Notes under the pieces: generated by a model | What the model was told of the DNA's origin: nothing | Seen by the model: the letters and a program-made list of their open reading frames with translations, nothing else | Databases searched by the model: none | Origin: Methylocella silvestris | GTDB lineage: Bacteria; Pseudomonadota; Alphaproteobacteria; Rhizobiales; Beijerinckiaceae | DNA: 64,000 nt | Assembly: GCF_002891535.1 (NCBI RefSeq) | Contig: NZ_PDZR01000001.1 | Location: 434,001 to 498,000 of the forward strand | Reading direction: 5' to 3' | Translations under genes and position numbers: made by a program | Shown here: positions 3,851 to 42,006 of the stretch, in pieces | Position numbering within the stretch: position 1 is the stretch's first letter | Layout: every line of letters begins with the position of its first letter

Positions 3851-3949
3851 CGCATTGCTTCATCCCTATGATTCGTCCAAGTTCCGCTTCTCTCCGCAGG
3901 CAGTCTCTGAGCTGTCTCAATAATTGAACGCTGCGAACGGGCGCCTTTC

Positions 3950-5623
3950 ATGTCTCAAACGCTTTCTCCCGCCGCCGCCAAAACTCCAAGATTCGGCGAA
4001 ATTGGCCTCGCGGGCGTGCTTGCTGTTCTCGCCTTGCTGACGGCCTTTATCGCCGTCAAGGCGTGGACGCCGGGCTACGCCTTCCACATGGTCGTGCTTT
4101 GCCTCGCCAGCGTCGCGGGCATTTATGCGATCTATCTGCGCTACCAGAAGCGCGAGGCCGCCTGGCCGCCGCAGGAGCTGGACGGCGTTCCCAACTATAA
4201 TTTCGGCCCGATCAAATTCTGCACCCTCGCCTCGGTATTCTGGGGCATAGCGGGCTTCACGGTCGGCCTTTACATAGCGCTGGAACTGGCCTTTCCCGAC
4301 CTCAATTTCGCGCGCTGGGTCAATTTCGGACGCCTGCGGCCGCTGCACACCTCGGCCGTCATCTTCGCGTTTGGCGGCAATATCTTGCTCGCGACTTCGC
4401 TCTATATCGTTCAGCGGACCTCCCGCGCCCGCCTTCCCGGCGACCTCTCGCCCTGGTTCATAGCGCTTGGCTATAATCTTTTCATCGTCATCGCCGGCAC
4501 TGGCTATCTGCTCGGCATTACCCACTCCAAAGAATACGCCGAACCCGAATGGTACGCGGACCTTCTGCTCGTCGCCGTCTGGCTGACCTATTTCGGCGTC
4601 TTCCTCGGCACGATCATGAAGCGGTCCGAACCGCATATCTATGTCGCCAACTGGTTCTTCCTCGCTTTCATCGTCACCATCGCGGTCCTCGTTCTCGGCA
4701 ATAATGCGGCGATCCCTGTCTCGTTGTTCTCGCCGAAATCCTACATCGTGTGGTCGGGCGTCCAGGACGCCATGATCCAGTGGTGGTACGGCCACAACGC
4801 GGTCGGCTTCTATCTGACGGCCTCCTTCCTCGGCATGATGTATTATTTCGTGCCGAAGCGGGCAGGGCGGCCGGTCTATTCCTATCGCCTGTCGATCATC
4901 CATTTCTGGGCGCTGATCTTCCTCTATATCTGGGCGGGTCCGCACCATCTCCACTTCACGGCGCTTCCCGATTGGGCGCAGACGCTGGGCATGACCATGT
5001 CCATCATCCTGTGGATGCCCTCCTGGGGCGGCATGATCAACGGAATGCTGACGCTTTCCGGCGCGTGGGACAAGCTGCGCACCGATCCCGTGCTGCGACT
5101 GCTCGTTGTCTCGATCGCCTTTTACGGAATGTCGACGTTCGAAGGGCCGTTGATGTCGATCAAGACGGTCAACTCGCTCAGCCATTACACGGACTGGACC
5201 ATCGGCCATGTCCATTCCGGCGCGCTCGGATGGGTCGGCTACATTTCCTTCGGCGCGCTCTATTGCATCGTTCCCTGGCTCTGGAACCGCCGCGGCCTCT
5301 ATTCGCTCAAGCTCGTCAATTGGCACTTCTGGATTTCGACGATCGGCATTGTCTTCTACATTAGCTCGATGTGGGTCGCCGGCATCATGCAGGGTCTGAT
5401 GTGGCGCGCCTATACTTCGCTTGGCTTCCTCGAATATTCCTTCATCGAGACCGTCGAGGCGATGCATCCGATGTATGTGATCCGCGCGCTCGGCGGCTTC
5501 CTGTTCCTCGTCGGCGCCCTGATCATGGCCTACAACCTCTACATGACGATCGTCTCGCCCGACGCCGCAGAGGTGCCGGAATCGCGGCCCTCGCCGCAAC
5601 CGCGTCTCGTTCCGGCCGAGTAG
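3950..5623 (+). CDS. ccoN: cbb3-type cytochrome c oxidase subunit I
   Basis: Catalytic subunit of the high-affinity cbb3 oxidase, an inner-membrane heme-copper oxidase that reduces O2 at low oxygen. The 557-residue protein is a 12-helix type C subunit I. Metal ligands are visible: His282 in [12 protein letters not shown] (CuB/active site), the CuB pair His332-His333 in GPHHLHF, and His420/His422 in [11 protein letters not shown] for the hemes. The early [14 protein letters not shown] segment carries the low-spin heme His. The N-terminus has an extra hydrophobic segment common in alphaproteobacteria. First gene of ccoNOQP; ccoO follows after 12 bases. A long open frame on the opposite strand here is a codon-bias shadow. 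Confidence 0.97.
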
Positions 5624-7469: not shown

Positions 7470-7514
7470 GCATGATTTCCGGAAACGGATCGCGTTTTCG
7501 AGTAGAAATCAAGC
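7470..7514. repeat. Imperfect inverted repeat between ccoP and ccoG
   Basis: GCATGATTTC and GAAATCAAGC form a 10-bp inverted repeat with one mismatch around a 25-base loop (TCCGGAAACGGATCG...). It lies in the 123-base gap between ccoP and ccoG. It could lower read-through from the structural genes into the assembly genes, or be a member of a dispersed intergenic repeat family. Confidence 0.45.
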
Positions 7515-7577
7515 ATTGAAACAAAAAGGAGCGTGGCGCGGAGATGCGCGTTCGCTCCGGCAGGCCGAAGCTGGACA

Positions 7578-9023
7578 ATGACGCAAGCACAAGCGAGCGA
7601 TCTCGGAGACGACTCACCTCTCTACGCCTCCGCCCCAAAGATCTACCCCCAAAAGGTGACCGGAACCTACCGGCGCATCAAATGGATCCTCCTCGCGGTG
7701 ACGCTGGGGATCTATTATTTTCTTCCGTTTGTGCGCTGGGATCGCGGTCCCGATGCGCCAAACCAGGCCGTGCTGATCGATTTCGCCAATCGAAAATTCT
7801 ACTTTTTCTTCATCGAGATCTGGCCGCAGGAAATCTATTATCTGACCGGGCTTCTGATCCTGGCGGCGATGACCCTGTTCCTCATGAACGCGCTCGCCGG
7901 GCGCGTTTGGTGCGGCTATCTCTGCCCCCAGACCGTTTGGACCGACCTGTTCTTCTGGACCGAGCGCCTTTTTGAAGGCGATCGCCGCGAGCGGATGCGC
8001 AAGGACGCCGGGCCCTGGACCTTCCAGCGCGTGCGCGAGAAAACCTTAAAGCATGTCGTCTGGCTCGCCGTTGCCTGGTGGACCGGCGGCGCATGGGTGC
8101 TCTATTTCGCCGACGCGCCGACGCTCGTCGGCAAGATGGCGCGATTCGAGGCGCCGCCCACAGCGCTGATCTGGATCGCGATTTTGACCACGACGACCTA
8201 TGTGCTCGCCGGCTTCATGCGCGAGCAGGTCTGCCTTTATATGTGTCCGTGGCCGCGCATCCAGGCCGCGCTGACTGACGAAAACGCGCTGAACGTCACC
8301 TATCGCTACGATCGCGGCGAGCCGCGCGAATCGCTCAAGAAAGCGAAGCTGCTGCGTTCGGGAGGTGAGAAGATCGGCGACTGCATCGATTGCGGTCAGT
8401 GCGTGGCCGTATGCCCGACCGGCGTCGATATCCGCCAGGGGCCGAGCCTCGGCTGCATCCAATGCGGTCTTTGCATCGACGCTTGCGATACGGTGATGGC
8501 CAAGATTGATCGTCCGCCCCGGCTCATCGCCTATGACACCGACCTCAATGTCGCGCGCCGCCTCGCGGGCAAGCCCAACGCGTTCAAATTGATCCGCGGC
8601 CGCACGATCCTTTACGCCGTCGTCATCTCAGCCGTCGGCGGCATTATGATTGCGGCCCTGGTCGGCCGCAAGGATGTGAGCCTGTCGGTCATGCACGACC
8701 GCAATCCGATGTTTGTCAAAACTTCGGATGGATCGATACGCAACGCCGTCACCGCGCATATTGTCAACCGCCACTCGACCGCGCGCAGCTTCTCGATCGA
8801 AGTCGAGCGGCCGGCGGGGGCGAGGGTGGCCGTCGTCGGCGGCGACAATGCGGAAGCGGCGCCGATCATTGAAGTCGGGCCGGACCAGGTTCGGGAAGTG
8901 CGCGTCTTCGTCATCATGCCGCGCAACGACGCGCTGCCGGCGAGCCAGGAGCTGGTCCTCAAGTTGAAGGACGCCGCGAGCGGCGCATCGACGACGGCGA
9001 CGGACAATTTCTTCGCGCCCTGA
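7578..9023 (+). CDS. ccoG: cbb3 oxidase assembly protein CcoG (FixG), cupric reductase type
   Basis: Inner-membrane polyferredoxin-like protein of 481 residues. CcoG-type proteins reduce Cu(II) to Cu(I) for insertion into the cbb3 CuB site. Several transmembrane helices fill the N-terminal half, with a NosR/FixG-like VWCGYLCPQTVW motif; two [4Fe-4S] motifs (CIDCGQCVAVCP and CIQCGLCIDAC) begin at Cys269; a C-terminal Ig-like periplasmic domain follows one more helix. The start is set at the ATG giving MTQAQASD, because the 15 upstream in-frame residues are Arg/Ala-rich and not family-like. First gene of the ccoGHIS assembly set. Confidence 0.95.
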   Translation: MTQAQASDLGDDSPLYASAPKIYPQKVTGTYRRIKWILLAVTLGIYYFLPFVRWDRGPDAPNQAVLIDFANRKFYFFFIEIWPQEIYYLTGLLILAAMTLFLMNALAGRVWCGYLCPQTVWTDLFFWTERLFEGDRRERMRKDAGPWTFQRVREKTLKHVVWLAVAWWTGGAWVLYFADAPTLVGKMARFEAPPTALIWIAILTTTTYVLAGFMREQVCLYMCPWPRIQAALTDENALNVTYRYDRGEPRESLKKAKLLRSGGEKIGDCIDCGQCVAVCPTGVDIRQGPSLGCIQCGLCIDACDTVMAKIDRPPRLIAYDTDLNVARRLAGKPNAFKLIRGRTILYAVVISAVGGIMIAALVGRKDVSLSVMHDRNPMFVKTSDGSIRNAVTAHIVNRHSTARSFSIEVERPAGARVAVVGGDNAEAAPIIEVGPDQVREVRVFVIMPRNDALPASQELVLKLKDAASGASTTATDNFFAP

Positions 9024-9550: not shown

Positions 9551-9758
9551 CGCTCTCAAGACGGGCTGGGCGGCCTCGTCATTATTGCGTCATCGCATAG
9601 ACGCAGCGGCGCGGCGCGCGGTAAATAGATGAAATTATGCGATGGCCCTTGCGGCCGGCGGCGGCGCTGAAGCTGCCCGCCGCGCAATCCGTTGGATTTT
9701 GGTTGGCGCAACCTCCCGTAGAAAAATCCCTCGGGACGATCGCGGCGGAAAGGCGATC

Positions 9759-12008
9759 ATGACCGAGGCGCTCGATCTTTCCGCTTTTGTGCAGCGCCTT
9801 GAGGAAGGCGGCTGCCGGATCGAATTCGCCGTCGAGGGCGTCAAGGACGCCGCCGCGATCCATGCGATCGAACATGCGCTCCGTGCTCTGCCCGGACTGA
9901 CCAAGGCGCGGGTCAATTTTTCCGAGCAGCGCCTTCTGGTCGAATGGACGGACGGCGTCGATCCTGCGTCGATCGTCGAACGGGTCCGCGCGCTCGGCTA
10001 TCGCATCTATCCCTTCTCGCCGCGTCTGCGCGAAGAGGACGTCGAGGCGTCGCAGGCGCGCTGGCTGCTGCGCTGCCTCGCCGTCGCGGCTTTCGCGGCG
10101 ATGAACATCATGCTGCTGTCGATCTCGGTCTGGGCCGGCAACGTCAGCGACATCACGCCGGAGACGCGCGATTTCTTTCATTGGGTGTCGGCGCTCATCG
10201 TCCTGCCGGCCGCGGCTTTCGCCGGGCAGCCCTTCTTCCGCAGCGCGATCCGCGCCCTTGGACGGCGCTCCCTCAATATGGACGTGCCGATCTCGCTCGG
10301 CGTCTTGCTCGCTTTGACGATGTCGGTGTTTGAGACTCTGCGCCACGCCGAGCACGCCTATTTCGACAGCGCCATCATGCTGCTCGTCTTCCTGCTCGCC
10401 GGCCGTTATCTCGATTCTGCGATGCGGCGCAAGACGCGCTCCTACGCCGCCAATCTGTCGGCCCTGCGCGCGCCGACCGCCTCGCGCATCGACGCCGATG
10501 GAACTGTCGGGCTCGTGCCGGCGGCGGCGCTCCGGCCAAGCGAGATCGTCCTGCTCCGTCCGGGCGAACGCGCGCCGGTCGACGGGATCGTCGTTGAAGG
10601 CAGATCCGAGATCGATCAGAGCCTCGTCACCGGCGAAACCGCGCCGGTCCCCGTCGGGGCTGGTCATGAGATCTATGCCGGTTCGCTGAATTTCAGCGGC
10701 GCTCTCACCATTCGCGTCAAGGCCGCCGGCGGGGGTACTTTCCTCGACGAGATCGAGCGGCTGCTGGACGGGGCGATCCATGAGAAAAGCGCCTATGTTC
10801 GCCTCGCCGACCGGGCCGCTCGTCTCTATGCGCCTGTGGTGCATTCGATGGCCGCGCTGACCGTCATCTTCTGGCTTATCGCCGGCGCATCGGTCCATGA
10901 CGCCATCATCGCCGCCATCGCGGTTTTGATCATCACCTGCCCCTGCGCCCTCGCTCTCGCCGTTCCTGCGGTGCAGGTCGTCGCCGCGGGCGCGCTGTTT
11001 CGCGCGAAAATCATCCTCAGCGCCGGCGACGCCATCGAACGCTTCGCCGACGTCGACATGGTGGTGTTTGACAAGACCGGCACGCTGACCTTGCCGGAGC
11101 TTGGCGTCGAAGTCGACGACGATGCGCCGCCCGGCCTTGTCGAACGGGCGGCCCGCCTGGCGCTCGCCTCGCATCACCCCCTCGCCGCGGCGCTCGCCCG
11201 CCTGTCGCGGGCGCAGGCGCCTGTCGCGGACGCGCAGGAGGTTCCGGGCTCCGGTGTGCAGGCGACGATCGACGGCGCCGAGGCTCGTCTTGGCTCGCCC
11301 GGTTTTTGCGGCCTCGAGGCTGACGCCGCACGCCTCCGGCTGATTCATCCGGGCGCCTCCCTGATCGCTTTTCGCCATGGCGGCGAGGCGACCATCTTCC
11401 GCATCCGGCAGAAGCTGCGCGCTGACGCGGCTTCTGTCATCGCTGCGCTTCGGCGCCGCGGGCTTGCGATCGTCATCCTGTCGGGCGACGCTGATCCCGC
11501 GGTGCGTTCCTGCGCGCTGGCGCTCGGGGTGGCCGAATGGCGCGCCGATATGCGGCCGGGCGAGAAACTCGCATTTCTGGCCGAACTCAAGAAAAACGGG
11601 CGCAAGCCGCTGATGGTCGGCGACGGCATGAACGACGCCCCTGCGCTCGCCGCCGCCCATGCTTCGCTGTCGCCGATCACCGCCTCGGGCCTCGCGCAAG
11701 CGGCGGCGGACGCGCTGTTCCTCGGCGACCTGCTCGGCCCCGTGGATGCGGTCCTTGACGTCTCGCGACGCGCAAAAAACCTGATGCGGCAGAATCTCGG
11801 CTTCGCGGTCGTCTATAATATGGTCGCCGTGCCGCTCGCGGTGGCGGGACTGGCGACGCCGCTCATCGCGGCGGCGGCGATGTCGGGGTCCTCGATTATC
11901 GTCACCCTCAACGCGCTGCGGGCGAGGGGCGCTGCGCGGGCCATCGCGCCCGGCGGCGCGCCCGCAGCAGCCCGCAGCGCAAGCCGTCTCAACGAGGCCC
12001 GGCCATGA
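9759..12008 (+). CDS. ccoI: P1B-type copper-exporting ATPase CcoI (FixI)
   Basis: Copper-translocating P-type ATPase that delivers Cu(I) to the periplasmic side for cbb3 assembly. The product has 749 residues from the ATG at 9759, which has GGCGGAAAGG upstream; the frame continues upstream to 9642 but that part is basic and unlike the family. Motifs: transmembrane metal site CPC at 394-396, phosphorylation site DKTGT with Asp438, HP motif in SHHPLAAAL, and the hinge GDGMNDAP at 621-628. Odd point: the N-terminal ferredoxin-like metal-binding domain (about 20-65) has lost its CxxC; the aligned positions read Asp30 and Ala33 (GVKDAAAIHAIE). The stop overlaps ccoS. Confidence 0.95.
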   Translation: MTEALDLSAFVQRLEEGGCRIEFAVEGVKDAAAIHAIEHALRALPGLTKARVNFSEQRLLVEWTDGVDPASIVERVRALGYRIYPFSPRLREEDVEASQARWLLRCLAVAAFAAMNIMLLSISVWAGNVSDITPETRDFFHWVSALIVLPAAAFAGQPFFRSAIRALGRRSLNMDVPISLGVLLALTMSVFETLRHAEHAYFDSAIMLLVFLLAGRYLDSAMRRKTRSYAANLSALRAPTASRIDADGTVGLVPAAALRPSEIVLLRPGERAPVDGIVVEGRSEIDQSLVTGETAPVPVGAGHEIYAGSLNFSGALTIRVKAAGGGTFLDEIERLLDGAIHEKSAYVRLADRAARLYAPVVHSMAALTVIFWLIAGASVHDAIIAAIAVLIITCPCALALAVPAVQVVAAGALFRAKIILSAGDAIERFADVDMVVFDKTGTLTLPELGVEVDDDAPPGLVERAARLALASHHPLAAALARLSRAQAPVADAQEVPGSGVQATIDGAEARLGSPGFCGLEADAARLRLIHPGASLIAFRHGGEATIFRIRQKLRADAASVIAALRRRGLAIVILSGDADPAVRSCALALGVAEWRADMRPGEKLAFLAELKKNGRKPLMVGDGMNDAPALAAAHASLSPITASGLAQAAADALFLGDLLGPVDAVLDVSRRAKNLMRQNLGFAVVYNMVAVPLAVAGLATPLIAAAAMSGSSIIVTLNALRARGAARAIAPGGAPAAARSASRLNEARP

Positions 12009-37822: not shown

Positions 37823-38869
37823 ATGACCGCTGAGACCGAAGCTGTCGACGCGCGTCCCGTCGCCGGGTCTGCCAGGGTCGGCATTCTGCTCGTCAACCTC
37901 GGCACGCCGGACGCGCTCGGCTATTGGCCCGTGCGCCGCTATCTGAAGGAGTTTCTGTCCGACAGGCGCGTCGTCAATACGCCCCGCCTGATCTGGTGGC
38001 CGATCCTCAATCTCATCATCCTCACGACCCGGCCGCAAAAAAGCAGCAAGAATTACGAGACGATCTGGAACAAGGAGCGCAATGAAAGCCCGCTGAAGAC
38101 CGTGACGCGATCGCAGGCGGAGCAGCTCGCCGGCTCAATTGCTTCCGGCGAATTTGGCTCCGGCGGAGACATCGTCGCGGATTGGGCGATGCGCTACGCC
38201 AATCCGTCGATCCGCTCGGCCCTGCAGCGCCTGCGAGAGCAGGGATGCGGCCGCTTGCTCATCGTCCCGCTCTATCCGCAATTTGCCGGCGCCACGACTT
38301 TGAGCGTCACGGACAAGGTGGAAGAATCGCTGGCGCGGATGAAGTGGCGTCCTGAAATGCGCAGCGTCCCGCCTTATTACAATGATCCCGTCTATATCGA
38401 CGCGCTGGCGGAGTCGGTCCGCGCGGGCGTTGGCGCGCTTGATTTCGAGCCGGAAGTCGTCCTCGTGTCGTTTCACGGCATCCCCAAATCCTATGTCGAG
38501 GCGGGCGATCCCTATTACGATCAATGCGTCGAGACCTGGCGGCTTTTGCGCGAGCGCCTCGATTTCTCGCCCGAGCGCTGTCCGCTGACCTTCCAGTCAC
38601 GGTTCGGGCGCGCCGAATGGCTCTCGCCCTATACGGACGAGACCGTCAAGGAACTGGCGCGGAAGGGCGTGCGGCGCATGGCGGTGCTGACGCCGGGCTT
38701 TTCCGTCGATTGCCTCGAGACGATCTCCGAGATAGGCGTCGAAAATCGCGAGTTTTTTATCGAGGCCGGCGGCGAGCAATTCGCGTTGATCCCCTGCCTC
38801 AACGACAGCGCGCTGGGGATGAAGGTCATCCGTCATATCATTGCGCGCGAGATCGACGGCTGGATCTAA
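37823..38869 (+). CDS. hemH: Ferrochelatase
   Basis: Inserts ferrous iron into protoporphyrin IX, the last step of heme b synthesis, at the inner membrane. The 348-residue protein shows GILLVNLGTPDAL, the catalytic-His signature VLVSFHGIPKSYVEAGDPY, LTFQSRFGRAEWLSPYTDET and a second active-site block TPGFSVDCLETISEI. Directly follows irr, probably co-transcribed, so heme status would feed back on it. Its stop lies one base from the end of the convergent bufferin operon. Confidence 0.95.
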   Translation: MTAETEAVDARPVAGSARVGILLVNLGTPDALGYWPVRRYLKEFLSDRRVVNTPRLIWWPILNLIILTTRPQKSSKNYETIWNKERNESPLKTVTRSQAEQLAGSIASGEFGSGGDIVADWAMRYANPSIRSALQRLREQGCGRLLIVPLYPQFAGATTLSVTDKVEESLARMKWRPEMRSVPPYYNDPVYIDALAESVRAGVGALDFEPEVVLVSFHGIPKSYVEAGDPYYDQCVETWRLLRERLDFSPERCPLTFQSRFGRAEWLSPYTDETVKELARKGVRRMAVLTPGFSVDCLETISEIGVENREFFIEAGGEQFALIPCLNDSALGMKVIRHIIAREIDGWI

Positions 38870-38870
38870 T

Positions 38871-39683
38871 CTAGCTTCCGGCCGGGTCCGCCGCGCGGAT
38901 GCCGGCAATGAGCCCGTCGGTGAACCAGCGCCCCAAAAACCCGGCGGCCTCGCCCGCGACGTCCTCGGCGGGGCGATTTTGCGCCAGAACCGCGCAGATC
39001 AGCGCGAAATCCGTCCCGCGTTGCAGCGAGGCCAAAGCGATCTCCTCGTCGCCGCTGAGCGCGCGGTAAAAGGAAAGATCGCGCTGGCGCCAGAACAGCA
39101 CCGTCTCCATCGGCGCGTTGTCCTCGCCGCCCGCATCCTCTTGGTCGGCTGTCTCGGACAGCTCGCTCTGGCTCAACGCATAGGCGCTGCGCGCGCTGCG
39201 CGGAAGTTCGATCATCTGCACCGAAGGGTGCAGGACAAAGGTCAGTTCCGGCCAATCCTCCGGCGTCTGCGCCGCGAGTACGTCAATGGCGAGCTGGGGG
39301 GCGTCCGGCGCGTCGAAGGCGCGCGACAAGGCGCGCTCGAATTCGGCAAGGCCGAGGGCGTTATCCTGTTCGCGCCAATGCGGATCCTCGCGCATGAAAT
39401 CCGGCAGGCCGCGGCAATAATCCTGCGCCGCGAAAGCGCGCGAGGGGCGGCCTTCGAGATAGGCCTCAAACAGCGCGCCGAAGGCCTCGTCGCCGAGGGT
39501 TTCGCGCAGTGCGGGAAATTCAGTGGAGAGGCCTTCGGCAAGCCGCAGCCGATACGCATCGTAATAGATCTTGAAGCGCGCCGCCGCGTTGAGCCTTGGC
39601 CCATCCTCGACGCCCCGCGGGGCGTCCTCGTCGCCGCAAAGAATGGCGCCCTGAAAGGCCGCCTGCATGTCCTTCAGGGTCAT
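38871..39683 (-). CDS. bufC: BufC-like partner protein (DUF2063 / HvfC family)
   Basis: Protein of 270 residues beginning MTLKDMQAAFQGAILCGDED, with the DUF2063 DNA-binding-like N-terminal domain (RFKIYYDAYRLRLAEGLSTEFPALRETLGDEAF, AYLEGRPSRAFAAQDYCRGLPDFM) and a winged C-terminal domain (ALSGDEEIALASLQRGTDF). In bufferin and related systems this protein works with the DUF692 enzyme, probably presenting the precursor peptide. The ATG overlaps the bufB stop (ATGA). The open frame upstream of 39683 is a shadow of bufB. Confidence 0.85.
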   Translation of the reverse strand: MTLKDMQAAFQGAILCGDEDAPRGVEDGPRLNAAARFKIYYDAYRLRLAEGLSTEFPALRETLGDEAFGALFEAYLEGRPSRAFAAQDYCRGLPDFMREDPHWREQDNALGLAEFERALSRAFDAPDAPQLAIDVLAAQTPEDWPELTFVLHPSVQMIELPRSARSAYALSQSELSETADQEDAGGEDNAPMETVLFWRQRDLSFYRALSGDEEIALASLQRGTDFALICAVLAQNRPAEDVAGEAAGFLGRWFTDGLIAGIRAADPAGS

Positions 39684-40522
39684 TCGGCGGCCTCCCGGCG
39701 GATGCGCGCCGCGGCGGCGATGGCCCGGGCGCGATCGAGTTCGCCGACAAGCTCGTGAAGCGGCGGGAAATTGTCGTCGCGCTCGATCATGGTCGAGATC
39801 GCGCCGAAGCGGCGACAGGCGCGTTCGAACAAGGACCACACCTCTTCAATCACCGGCTGGTCGTGGGTGTCGATTTTATGCGTCTCGTGGTCCGAATGTC
39901 CGGCAAGATGTAGCTGGAGCACGCGCTCCTGCGGAATGTCATCGAGAAAGCGGGCCGGGTCGAAGCCATGGTTGAAGCTTGAGACGAAGATATTATTGAC
40001 GTCGAGCAGCAGCCAGCAATCGGCTTTTTCGGCGAGTTCGCGCAAGAAGGCCTCTTCGGTCATCTCGGACTCGGCGAAGGTCACATAGCTCGACACATTT
40101 TCGATGGCGATGCGGCGTTGCAGAAAATCCTCAACGCGCAAAATGCGCTCGGCGACGTGATCCAGGGCTTCGCGCGTGTAGGGGATCGGCAAAAGGTCGT
40201 GCAGATTGACGCCATGGACGCCGGTCCAGCACAAATGGTCGGAAATCCATTCGGGCTCGCAGCGGCGGGCGAGATCCCGCAATTTGCCGAGATAGTCGAA
40301 ATCGAGCGGCGCGGTCGAGGCAATCGACATCGAGACGCCGTGCATGACAATGCGGTAATCGGCGCGGATATCGTCGAGGATGGCGAGCGGGCGTCCGCCC
40401 CGCCCGATGTAATTTTCCGAAATCACTTCGAACCAGTCGATGTCGGGCCGTTCTTTGACGATTTCGGCATGATAGCGGTGCCGAAGGCCGAGACCGAAGC
40501 CAAGAGGGGCAGGCTTTTCCAT
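39680..40522 (-). CDS. bufB: Multinuclear non-heme iron oxidase (MNIO, DUF692) BufB-like maturase
   Basis: TIM-barrel iron enzyme of 280 residues, homologous to MbnB and BufB, which modify cysteines of ribosomal peptides. Candidate metal ligands fit the family: His61 (VMHGVS), His96 (ISDHLCW), Glu141 (IENVSSY), Asp174 with Asn176 (LLDVNNIF), His205/His209 (QLHLAGHSDH) and Asp218-x-His220 (IDTHDQPV). Downstream of a Cys-rich precursor and followed by the DUF2063 partner, it should install thiooxazole- or oxazolone-type groups on BufA. Start ATG at 40522 gives MEKPAPLGFGLGLR; an upstream extension is not family-like. Confidence 0.9.
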   Translation of the reverse strand: MEKPAPLGFGLGLRHRYHAEIVKERPDIDWFEVISENYIGRGGRPLAILDDIRADYRIVMHGVSMSIASTAPLDFDYLGKLRDLARRCEPEWISDHLCWTGVHGVNLHDLLPIPYTREALDHVAERILRVEDFLQRRIAIENVSSYVTFAESEMTEEAFLRELAEKADCWLLLDVNNIFVSSFNHGFDPARFLDDIPQERVLQLHLAGHSDHETHKIDTHDQPVIEEVWSLFERACRRFGAISTMIERDDNFPPLHELVGELDRARAIAAAARIRREAAE

Positions 40523-40563
40523 CGTCGCTCTCGGTGTGACGGTCGCCGCTGGGGGGGGCGCGA

Positions 40564-40594
40564 GGCGCGGGCGGTTCAATCTCACCGCCGCGCC
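40564..40594 (-). terminator. GC-rich hairpin between bufA and bufB (attenuator candidate)
   Basis: Two arms, GGCGCGGGCGGT and ACCGCCGCGCC, pair over 11 bp with one bulge around an 8-base loop (TCAATCTC). It lies within the 93-base gap between precursor and maturase genes. It would allow more bufA transcript than bufBC transcript, or protect the bufA mRNA end. Confidence 0.5.
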
Positions 40595-40615
40595 CCGCAA
40601 AGTTGAGCCGTTATA

Positions 40616-40900
40616 TCAGATAACCGTACCGCCCTTTGACGTGCAGGCGGCGGTTGTCTTGGTCGGTAGCCAGCCATGGCCCTTGCAGCTGTTTTGCCCC
40701 TTGCAGGCGTTTTCCGCCGTCTTGCAGGCGCTCGTTCCCTTGCAAGAGTTGATCCCCATGCAATGAACAATTTTCGCCGATTTGGCGGCGGCCGGGCTCA
40801 AGGCGGCGCCATTCATCGCGAGAGCGATGGCGGCGATGGCGAGGCTTGCGCCAGAGGCGACTTTGCTGGTCCGAATGCCCGAGTCGTGGCTGCTGGTCAT
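40616..40900 (-). CDS. bufA: BufA2-type bufferin precursor (exported Cys-rich peptide)
   Basis: Ninety-four residues from the ATG at 40900 (GTGGAG 7 bases upstream). A long signal peptide (n-region with Arg10/Lys13, hydrophobic 14-36, cleavage near AAAK at 39-40) precedes a core with six Cys at 47, 53, 59, 66, 72 and 86: HCMGINSC, KGTSACKTAENAC, KGQNSCKGHGW and TAACTSKGG. This regular Cys-x5/6-Cys pattern with CKG repeats marks the six-cysteine bufferin family (BufA2), periplasmic peptides whose modified cysteines bind copper. It is followed by bufB and bufC; no bufD/DoxX gene is seen. Confidence 0.88.
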   Translation of the reverse strand: MTSSHDSGIRTSKVASGASLAIAAIALAMNGAALSPAAAKSAKIVHCMGINSCKGTSACKTAENACKGQNSCKGHGWLPTKTTAACTSKGGTVI

Positions 40901-40996
40901 GGTGAACTCCACAGAAAAACCCGCGGCGGCGCGGGCGTTGCGCGAGCCGTTGCGGCCCACACAAGCTCTACGTCGGTCGATGCGGATCGTTACATG

Positions 40997-41012
40997 ATCA
41001 CGCGATTGTGAT
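40997..41012. promoter_or_regulatory. Palindrome upstream of bufA
   Basis: ATCAC-N6-GTGAT, about 100 bases before the bufA start and just beyond the galE 3' end. A possible regulator site; it does not match a copper-regulator box known to me. Confidence 0.25.
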
Positions 41013-41016
41013 AGCG

Positions 41017-42006
41017 TTATCCGGTCTTTCTATTGTGCAGCCGGCGCTCCCACGACAGCGCCTGCTCGACGATCTCGGCGAGATTGTCATGTTTCGGCGT
41101 CCAGCCGAGCTCCTGCCGGACGCGGTCGGCGCCGGCGACGAGCGAGGCTGGATCGCCGGGCCGGCGTCCCTTCAGCCGCACCTCGAAATCGACGCCCGAC
41201 ACTTTTTTCACGACCTCGACGACTTCGAGCACGGAAAGGCCCCGGCCATAGCCGCAATTGCAGGTGAGGCTACCGCCGCCGGCGCGCAGATGCGCCAGCG
41301 CCAGCAAATGCGCGTCGACGAGATCGGTCACCTGAATATAGTCGCGCACACAGGAGCCGTCGCGCGTCGGATAATCGGTTCCAAACACGTCAAGTCCGTC
41401 GCGATGGCCAAGCGCGGCCTGCACCGCGACCTTGATGAGATGGGTCGCGACCGGCGAGGACTGGCCGAGCCGCCCGGCGGGATCAGCTCCGGCGACGTTG
41501 AAATAGCGCAGCACGACATAGCGCAGCTGATGCGCCGCCGCGACGTCGGCGAGCATCCATTCAACCATCAGCTTCGAGCGGCCATAAGGGTTGATCGGCG
41601 CCAGGGCGACATTCTCGAAGACTGGATTTTCCGCGGGCTCGCCATAAACGGCCGCGGTCGAGGAGAAGATGAACTGCTTGACGCCAGCCTTGACCGCGCA
41701 TTCGAGCAGATTGCGCGCCTTGGCCGTATTGTTGAGATAATAGGCGAGAGGGTCCGAGACGGACTCCGGCACGACGATCTTCGCCGCGAAATGGGCGATC
41801 GCGTCGATGCGATGGTCAGCGAAAATCTGATCGACGAGCGCGCTGTCGCCGAAGTCGCCGACGATCAGCTTGGCTGCGGGAGGGACCGCCCAGGCGAAGC
41901 CGGTCGAGAGATTGTCAAGAACGACGACCTCCTCGCCCTGATCGAGCAGCGCCAACGCCATATGGCCGCCAATATAGCCAGCGCCGCCGGTAACGAGTAC
42001 TGCCAT
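41017..42006 (-). CDS. galE: UDP-glucose 4-epimerase
   Basis: Interconverts UDP-glucose and UDP-galactose for surface polysaccharides. The 329-residue extended SDR shows the NAD motif GGAGYIGGH, catalytic Ser in FSSTAAVYGEP, YxxxK as YGRSK, RYFNVAGADP and DGSCVRDYIQVTDLVDAHLLAL. Divergent from galU, 274 bases away, whose product makes UDP-glucose; the two share a pathway. Confidence 0.95.
   Translation of the reverse strand: MAVLVTGGAGYIGGHMALALLDQGEEVVVLDNLSTGFAWAVPPAAKLIVGDFGDSALVDQIFADHRIDAIAHFAAKIVVPESVSDPLAYYLNNTAKARNLLECAVKAGVKQFIFSSTAAVYGEPAENPVFENVALAPINPYGRSKLMVEWMLADVAAAHQLRYVVLRYFNVAGADPAGRLGQSSPVATHLIKVAVQAALGHRDGLDVFGTDYPTRDGSCVRDYIQVTDLVDAHLLALAHLRAGGGSLTCNCGYGRGLSVLEVVEVVKKVSGVDFEVRLKGRRPGDPASLVAGADRVRQELGWTPKHDNLAEIVEQALSWERRLHNRKTG

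Follow-up and report, generated by a model that had tools for sequence, protein, structure and literature searches.

Three open reading frames on the minus strand, arranged in the order bufA-bufB-bufC, form a compact operon within the window, i.e., the whole stretch of 64,000 nucleotides that was analysed. The first gene, bufA (40616..40900), starts with an ATG at 40900 and is coding down to 40619, its stop codon ending at 40616; translation might alternatively begin at an in-frame GTG at 40960. The gene encodes a bufferin precursor of the BufA2 family with a length of 94 amino acids. After a gap of 93 nt, bufA is followed by bufB, read from 40522 to 39680 and coding for a predicted bufferin maturase of 280 amino acids that belongs to the MNIO (former DUF692) enzymes. 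The ATG start of bufB is our choice; a longer frame starting with TTG at 40600 is also listed. The ATG of bufC (39683–38871) overlaps the stop codon of bufB, which ends at 39680. The bufC product, a protein of 270 amino acids, is a putative partner protein with a DUF2063 domain and an RRE-like domain (PME-type 1).

Upstream of bufA, on the same strand, lies galE. On the other side of the operon, hemH (37823–38869, plus strand) is convergent with bufC, with 1 nt separating the two stop codons, and irr is located upstream of hemH, on the other strand. A preliminary description of this DNA had proposed a complete bufABC operon of the bufferin type, and three minus-strand genes with profile scores far above the cut-offs were indeed found at this place. 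Since these scores are well over the curated cut-offs, and since the same ordered trio occurs in 54 of the 80 named loci from other genomes (the best 80 of 413), the operon is beyond chance.

The precursor and its cysteine register

When checked against the bufferin profiles, the precursor passed the NCBIfam BufA2 model NF050166 with a score of 100 bits (cut-off 60). A match to DUF2282 (Buf1) was not obtained at an E value of 0.1, and the EGKCG motif is absent from the BufA peptide of the window. Pfam yielded no BufA2 match, and DUF7640 appeared below its cut-off only (18.9 vs 28.1). A hydrophobic stretch and an Ala-rich run ahead of the core, judged by eye, may make up a Sec-like signal region.

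In the translation, the cysteines occupy positions 47, 53, 59, 66, 72, and 86, exactly as first described. All six are invariant in an alignment of 24 BufA2 sequences, which represent 24 of the 29 distinct over-cut-off matches from relatives and class genomes. The register C-x5-C-x5-C-x6-C-x5-C, with the last cysteine 13 or 14 residues further on, was kept in 103 of the 104 BufA2 frames of the window and the 80 named loci, which are the best 80 of 413 confirmed loci; the only misfit, the second BufA2 frame of locus L112, is truncated where its stretch ends. In the 103 frames of this set, the last cysteine follows at a spacing of 14 (80 frames) or 13 residues (23 frames). Lysine follows Cys2, Cys3, and Cys5 in all 103 and Cys4 in 102 frames, and the residues after Cys1 and Cys6 are mixed; these lysine and register counts are biased, because the search pattern itself required CK at Cys2 and Cys3 and because the loci are the best 80 of 413. 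The 24-sequence set was gathered without any lysine pattern. Inspected by eye, it has lysine after Cys53 and Cys72 in 24, after Cys59 in 22, and after Cys66 in 20 sequences. Six conserved cysteines have been reported for 90% of Buf2 peptides (PMC12452194).

The preliminary description had seen a possible new modification pattern in the isolated sixth cysteine. This suggestion did not hold: given the invariance of this residue in 24 of 24 aligned sequences and the register kept across the frames of the family (103 of 104 in the window and the best 80 of 413 loci), the sixth cysteine is ordinary, and a new cysteine pattern was rejected in favour of one that is family-wide.

The AlphaFold model of BufA2 was poor, with a mean pLDDT of 60.5 and a pTM of 0.33, and due to this low confidence it neither supports nor excludes a disulphide between Cys47 and Cys86. 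The BufA2 model matched nothing in Caulobacter vibrioides, whose genome served as a control, even at an E value of 10. C. vibrioides is the published source of Buf2 (PMC12452194), and its Buf2 may either fall outside the NCBIfam BufA2 model or have been missed by the first-pass search. Silent in this organism, the model possibly recognises just a portion of Buf2.

The maturase BufB and the partner protein BufC

BufB scored 371 bits with PF05114 (cut-off 25) and 370 bits with the NCBIfam bufferin-maturase model NF050167 (cut-off 310), and stayed below the cut-offs of the HvfB (281 vs 360 bits) and MbnB (60.6 vs 325 bits) models. The residues H61, H96, E141, D174, N177, H205, D218, H220, and E247, which we take to be metal-site residues, are identical in all BufB2-like (58–59) and BufB1-like (17) frames aligned. 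BufB frames below 150 bits were left out of the motif and residue counts, and those below 300 bits out of the tree described below. One frame of locus L160 was scored as BufB2-like in the residue counts, yet sits in a Buf1-type operon.

The BufB protein contains the motif E247-R248-D249-D250 (ERDD), which aligns with ERDF of 3bww. In MNIO enzymes acting on Cys-Lys motifs, Asp replaces Phe250 of FonB, which adjoins the catalytic base Asp249, and Phe is found in the Lys-Cys types; the Asp residue of the Cys-Lys enzymes has been modelled as contacting a lysine of BufA2 (PMC13097082). Helped by the alignment with 3bww, we infer that D249 and D250 of BufB are probably the sites equivalent to Asp249 and Phe250 of FonB. 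At this presumed selecting site, Asp is present in 35 of 58 BufB2-like frames vs none of 17 BufB1-like frames, the remaining BufB2-like frames having Ala (22) or Gly (1). As a marker, Asp is therefore not strict.

With 66 bits towards PF09836 (cut-off 27.2), the bufC product proved to be the DUF2063 protein that had been postulated. The NCBIfam HvfC model matched BufC only below its cut-off (18.4 vs 142), and a sequence search of the PDB gave no match to BufC. An AlphaFold2 model of the protein, calculated from 36 aligned sequences, had a mean pLDDT of 91. Lower-ranked Foldseek matches of this model include TbiB1 with its leader peptide, and the TbiB1 domain matched is presumably an RRE. The three matches under an E value of 0.001 were TglI (8hci, 8hi7) and NGO1945 (3dee), which are partner proteins of MNIO enzymes (PMC12452194). 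Both the profile match and the fold match of the model identify BufC as a putative PME-type 1 partner, composed of a DUF2063 domain and an RRE-type domain.

Leader region and neighbouring genes

The leader between galE and bufA (40901..41016, minus strand) contains the palindrome ATCAC-N6-GTGAT (40997–41012), located just after galE, and a terminator-like hairpin (40936–40919); both elements are kept in the sister genome G009. The 18-nt stretch around the palindrome is present a single time without mismatch in the genome and at four further places with 3 mismatches, as compared to none for the reversed control. Scanning of the region 38700–41200 for promoters yielded three sites (vs 0.3 in shuffles), none of them inside the bufA leader, while two terminator-like sites in the region, as compared to 2.4 in shuffles, do not represent an excess.

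The operon had been described as lying back to back with irr-hemH and in the same window as a cbb3 oxidase. In fact, hemH and bufC are arranged tail to tail and share no promoter region, and the cbb3 cluster is present in the window but about 27–35 kb away from bufC. This cluster comprises a ccoN-like frame (3911–5620), so called by its GHNA motif alone, a FixG_C domain (7506–9020), and a frame carrying the DKTGT motif of P-type ATPases (9633–12005). Since hemH is convergent and cbb3 is about 27–35 kb distant, co-regulation of the buf genes with irr-hemH or cbb3 finds no support and was rejected, the links being by position only.

Distribution and origin in the genus

Among 60 relatives, 8 have a BufA2 match over the cut-off; the corresponding figures are 3 of 15 for the genus and 16 of 289 for the class, the own genome being included each time. 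An MNIO enzyme occurs in all 15 genomes of the genus. The sister genome G009 has the same operon at the same place, with the flanking genes in the same order on both sides. Apart from G012, all of the other 14 genomes in the genus (G009 and 12 more) were compared over the hemH region; among the genomes compared, a buf operon between hemH and galE is present only in this genome and in G009. No buf genes were found near hemH in the 12 other congeners. In three of them (G014, G002, and G011) hemH adjoins galE, and in two (G008 and G003) it adjoins galU, without a buf gene between, while seven have neither galE nor galU beside hemH in the stretch compared. In a tree of 66 BufB proteins, the window and G009 were grouped with a support of 1.0; they belong to a clade (0.998) with Methylocystis, Rhodoblastus, Methylosinus, Methylovirgula, and unnamed loci, the node between having a support of only 0.265.

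Those congeners in which the hemH junction holds no buf genes favour a gain, and the lineage leading to this genome and G009 probably acquired the operon next to hemH, in addition to a buf1 operon. The gain rests on parsimony, and loss elsewhere is possible.

In genome G004, the buf2 genes are located on another contig, and bufB is split over two frames (L038, 8344–9131), owing either to gene decay or to a fault in the assembly. In another congener, a 45-residue match to the C-terminal part of MNIO enzymes, contained in a 66-residue open frame (G005:C14:77437-77571), may be what is left of a second enzyme.

Buf2 loci in other genomes and the occurrence of DoxX

Among the named loci (the best 80 of 413), 54 show bufA2, bufB2, and bufC in this order and three show A-B and then end. 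In another seven, BufA2 precedes a Buf1-type operon and no BufB2 of its own was found nearby, and 16 have BufA2 without a bufB gene within the limits; six of these 16 have less than 3 kb left, and one (L098) is followed further on by a Buf1-type operon. The seven loci that place BufA2 before a Buf1-type operon are from Methylocystis (L090, L091, L094, L099, L101, L103, and L117), and there a single enzyme of the Buf1 type may act on both kinds of precursor. In L114, L129, L131, L136, L138, and L158, a single bufBC pair is preceded by three or four BufA2 frames in tandem, the hosts being Reyranella, Rhodospirillales, and a MAG titled Enhydrobacter. In Chelatococcus (L139, 8064–9152), hemH is convergent with bufC; among the best 80 of 413 loci, this is the only one in whose available stretch hemH was found.

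DoxX genes have been counted as part of the core of bufferin clusters, in a passage that does not split Buf1 and Buf2 (PMC12452194). The preliminary description had pointed out that DoxX is lacking here, and PF07681 indeed has no match within the 64-kb window; all three PF07681 matches of this genome are located outside the window, one of them belonging to a distinct buf1 operon (contig C43). The absence is, however, not distinguishing. Using a 12-sequence profile, a same-strand DoxX gene within 1.5 kb after bufC was found in none of the 54 loci with the order A2-B2-C (taken from the best 80 of 413), the full 1.5 kb downstream of bufC being present in 41 of them, and for the loci compared, absence of DoxX was rejected as a distinguishing mark. 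Four of the 54 loci have DoxX at other positions. In L115 it directly follows bufC on the opposite strand, and in L150 it precedes bufA2, in both cases within neighbouring buf1 operons. In L160 it is found upstream on the other strand, and L164 has a weak DoxX match upstream.

Comparison with known systems

The operon corresponds to Buf2 (BufA2B2C2, Buf_6/12Cys; NF050166, NF050167), known from C. vibrioides, in its precursor model, six cysteines, Cys-Lys motifs, MNIO subtype, PME-type 1 partner, and the gene order ABC, and its coding sequences show nothing that sets it apart. Buf1 (DUF2282) has in common with it the MNIO enzyme and DUF2063 partner as well as an outer cysteine pair and inner cysteines, but differs in its DUF2282 precursor with four cysteines, in a sigma-70/ECF gene and DoxX nearby, and in a BufB protein that is about 41% identical. 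The buf1 operon of this genome on contig C43 (L002, L044) comprises genes for a DUF2282 precursor, an MNIO enzyme, a DUF2063 partner, a sigma-70/ECF protein, and DoxX. The EGKCG peptides oxazolin, fontiphorin, and gonophorin share the predicted thiooxazole class and the MNIO-PME1 enzymes (PMC13097082). Their repeat is of the Lys-Cys kind and their selecting site is occupied by Phe, in contrast to Cys-Lys and Asp in the system described here, the BufB of which does not reach the cut-off of the HvfB model. Methanobactins (MbnABC) likewise are copper peptides formed by the MNIO superfamily; however, the enzyme subfamily (60.6 of 325 bits with MbnB), the partner type, and the role are different.

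A published description of this Methylocella operon was not found in the titles, abstract openings, and passages searched. The locus is a typical Buf2 (captophorin) operon, real and well identified, and not new in kind.

Proposed function and alternative explanations

Taken as a whole, we consider it very probable that the operon directs the formation of four Cys-Lys thiooxazoles by BufBC and of a Cys47–Cys86 disulphide, yielding a peptide for periplasmic copper buffering. The BufA2 precursor would be synthesized with its Sec-type signal region and, in the cytoplasm, would be presented by BufC, with its DUF2063 and RRE-like domains, to the iron oxygenase BufB. This enzyme would oxidise the four central Cys-Lys cysteines (53, 59, 66, and 72) to 5-thiooxazoles, whereas Cys47 and Cys86 would stay unmodified and be joined by a disulphide bond once exported. 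In its mature form, the peptide would then bind excess copper in the periplasm. Export, thiooxazole chemistry, and copper binding of this particular peptide are predicted by analogy. In Buf1, modification affects the central cysteines and a disulphide links the outer pair (PMC12452194, Fig. 3 legend), and it is by analogy with Buf1 alone that four modified cysteines and a Cys47–Cys86 disulphide are proposed here. We infer four thiooxazoles and one disulphide from this Buf1 pattern, together with the Asp site of BufB and the lysines present after Cys53, Cys59, Cys66, and Cys72 but absent after Cys47 and Cys86.

Alternatively, BufBC might convert all six cysteines including Cys86, resulting in a hexa-modified peptide without a disulphide. 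The invariance of all six residues would fit such a conversion, and the available passages of PMC12452194 do not state the number of modified cysteines for Buf2, but the lysine that marks Cys-Lys substrates does not follow Cys1 and Cys6, and the outer pair of Buf1 is a disulphide (PMC12452194), so that we regard this as unlikely. Even if it were true, the same six cysteines occur family-wide. A response to another metal or stress than copper excess, i.e., to iron or haem via irr-hemH or in assembly of the cbb3 oxidase, could be considered because MNIO enzymes need iron and because the operon adjoins hemH, which is also convergent in one named locus, that of Chelatococcus (L139; best 80 of 413). 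Such a role is nevertheless quite improbable in view of the convergent orientation of hemH, the position of irr upstream of hemH on the other strand, the 12 congeners that keep hemH without buf genes beside it, and the distance of about 27–35 kb to the cbb3 genes. A methanobactin-like chalkophore for copper uptake seems hardly conceivable: the host encodes a soluble methane monooxygenase, and MbnB is a member of the same enzyme superfamily, but BufB scores far below the MbnB cut-off (60.6 bits vs 325), the precursor is a BufA2 match, the partner belongs to the DUF2063 type, and no methanobactin operon has been reported for Methylocella BL2 (PMC3621798).

Buffering of excess copper by a Buf2 peptide would take place in a methane-oxidising host. 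An MmoX protein encoded in the genome matched methane monooxygenase structures over its whole length in a PDB search, while NCBIfam did not name it at an E value of 1e-10. Subunits of AMO/pMMO had no match in the genome, a result for which there was no positive control, since the control genomes were also without a match. In a methanotroph with soluble methane monooxygenase and no AMO/pMMO detected, Buf2 might conceivably have been gained beside hemH as a second copper-buffering system in addition to the sigma-factor-linked buf1 operon and be expressed from its own leader with the conserved palindrome, Buf1 and Buf2 thereby answering different copper or stress signals in the same cell; we put this forward as a tentative idea that is rather less probable than not.

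The operon adds a clean example of Buf2 for a methane-oxidising group. The peptide described here provides a test case, for which the Cys-Lys rule singles out the four of its six cysteines that would be modified.
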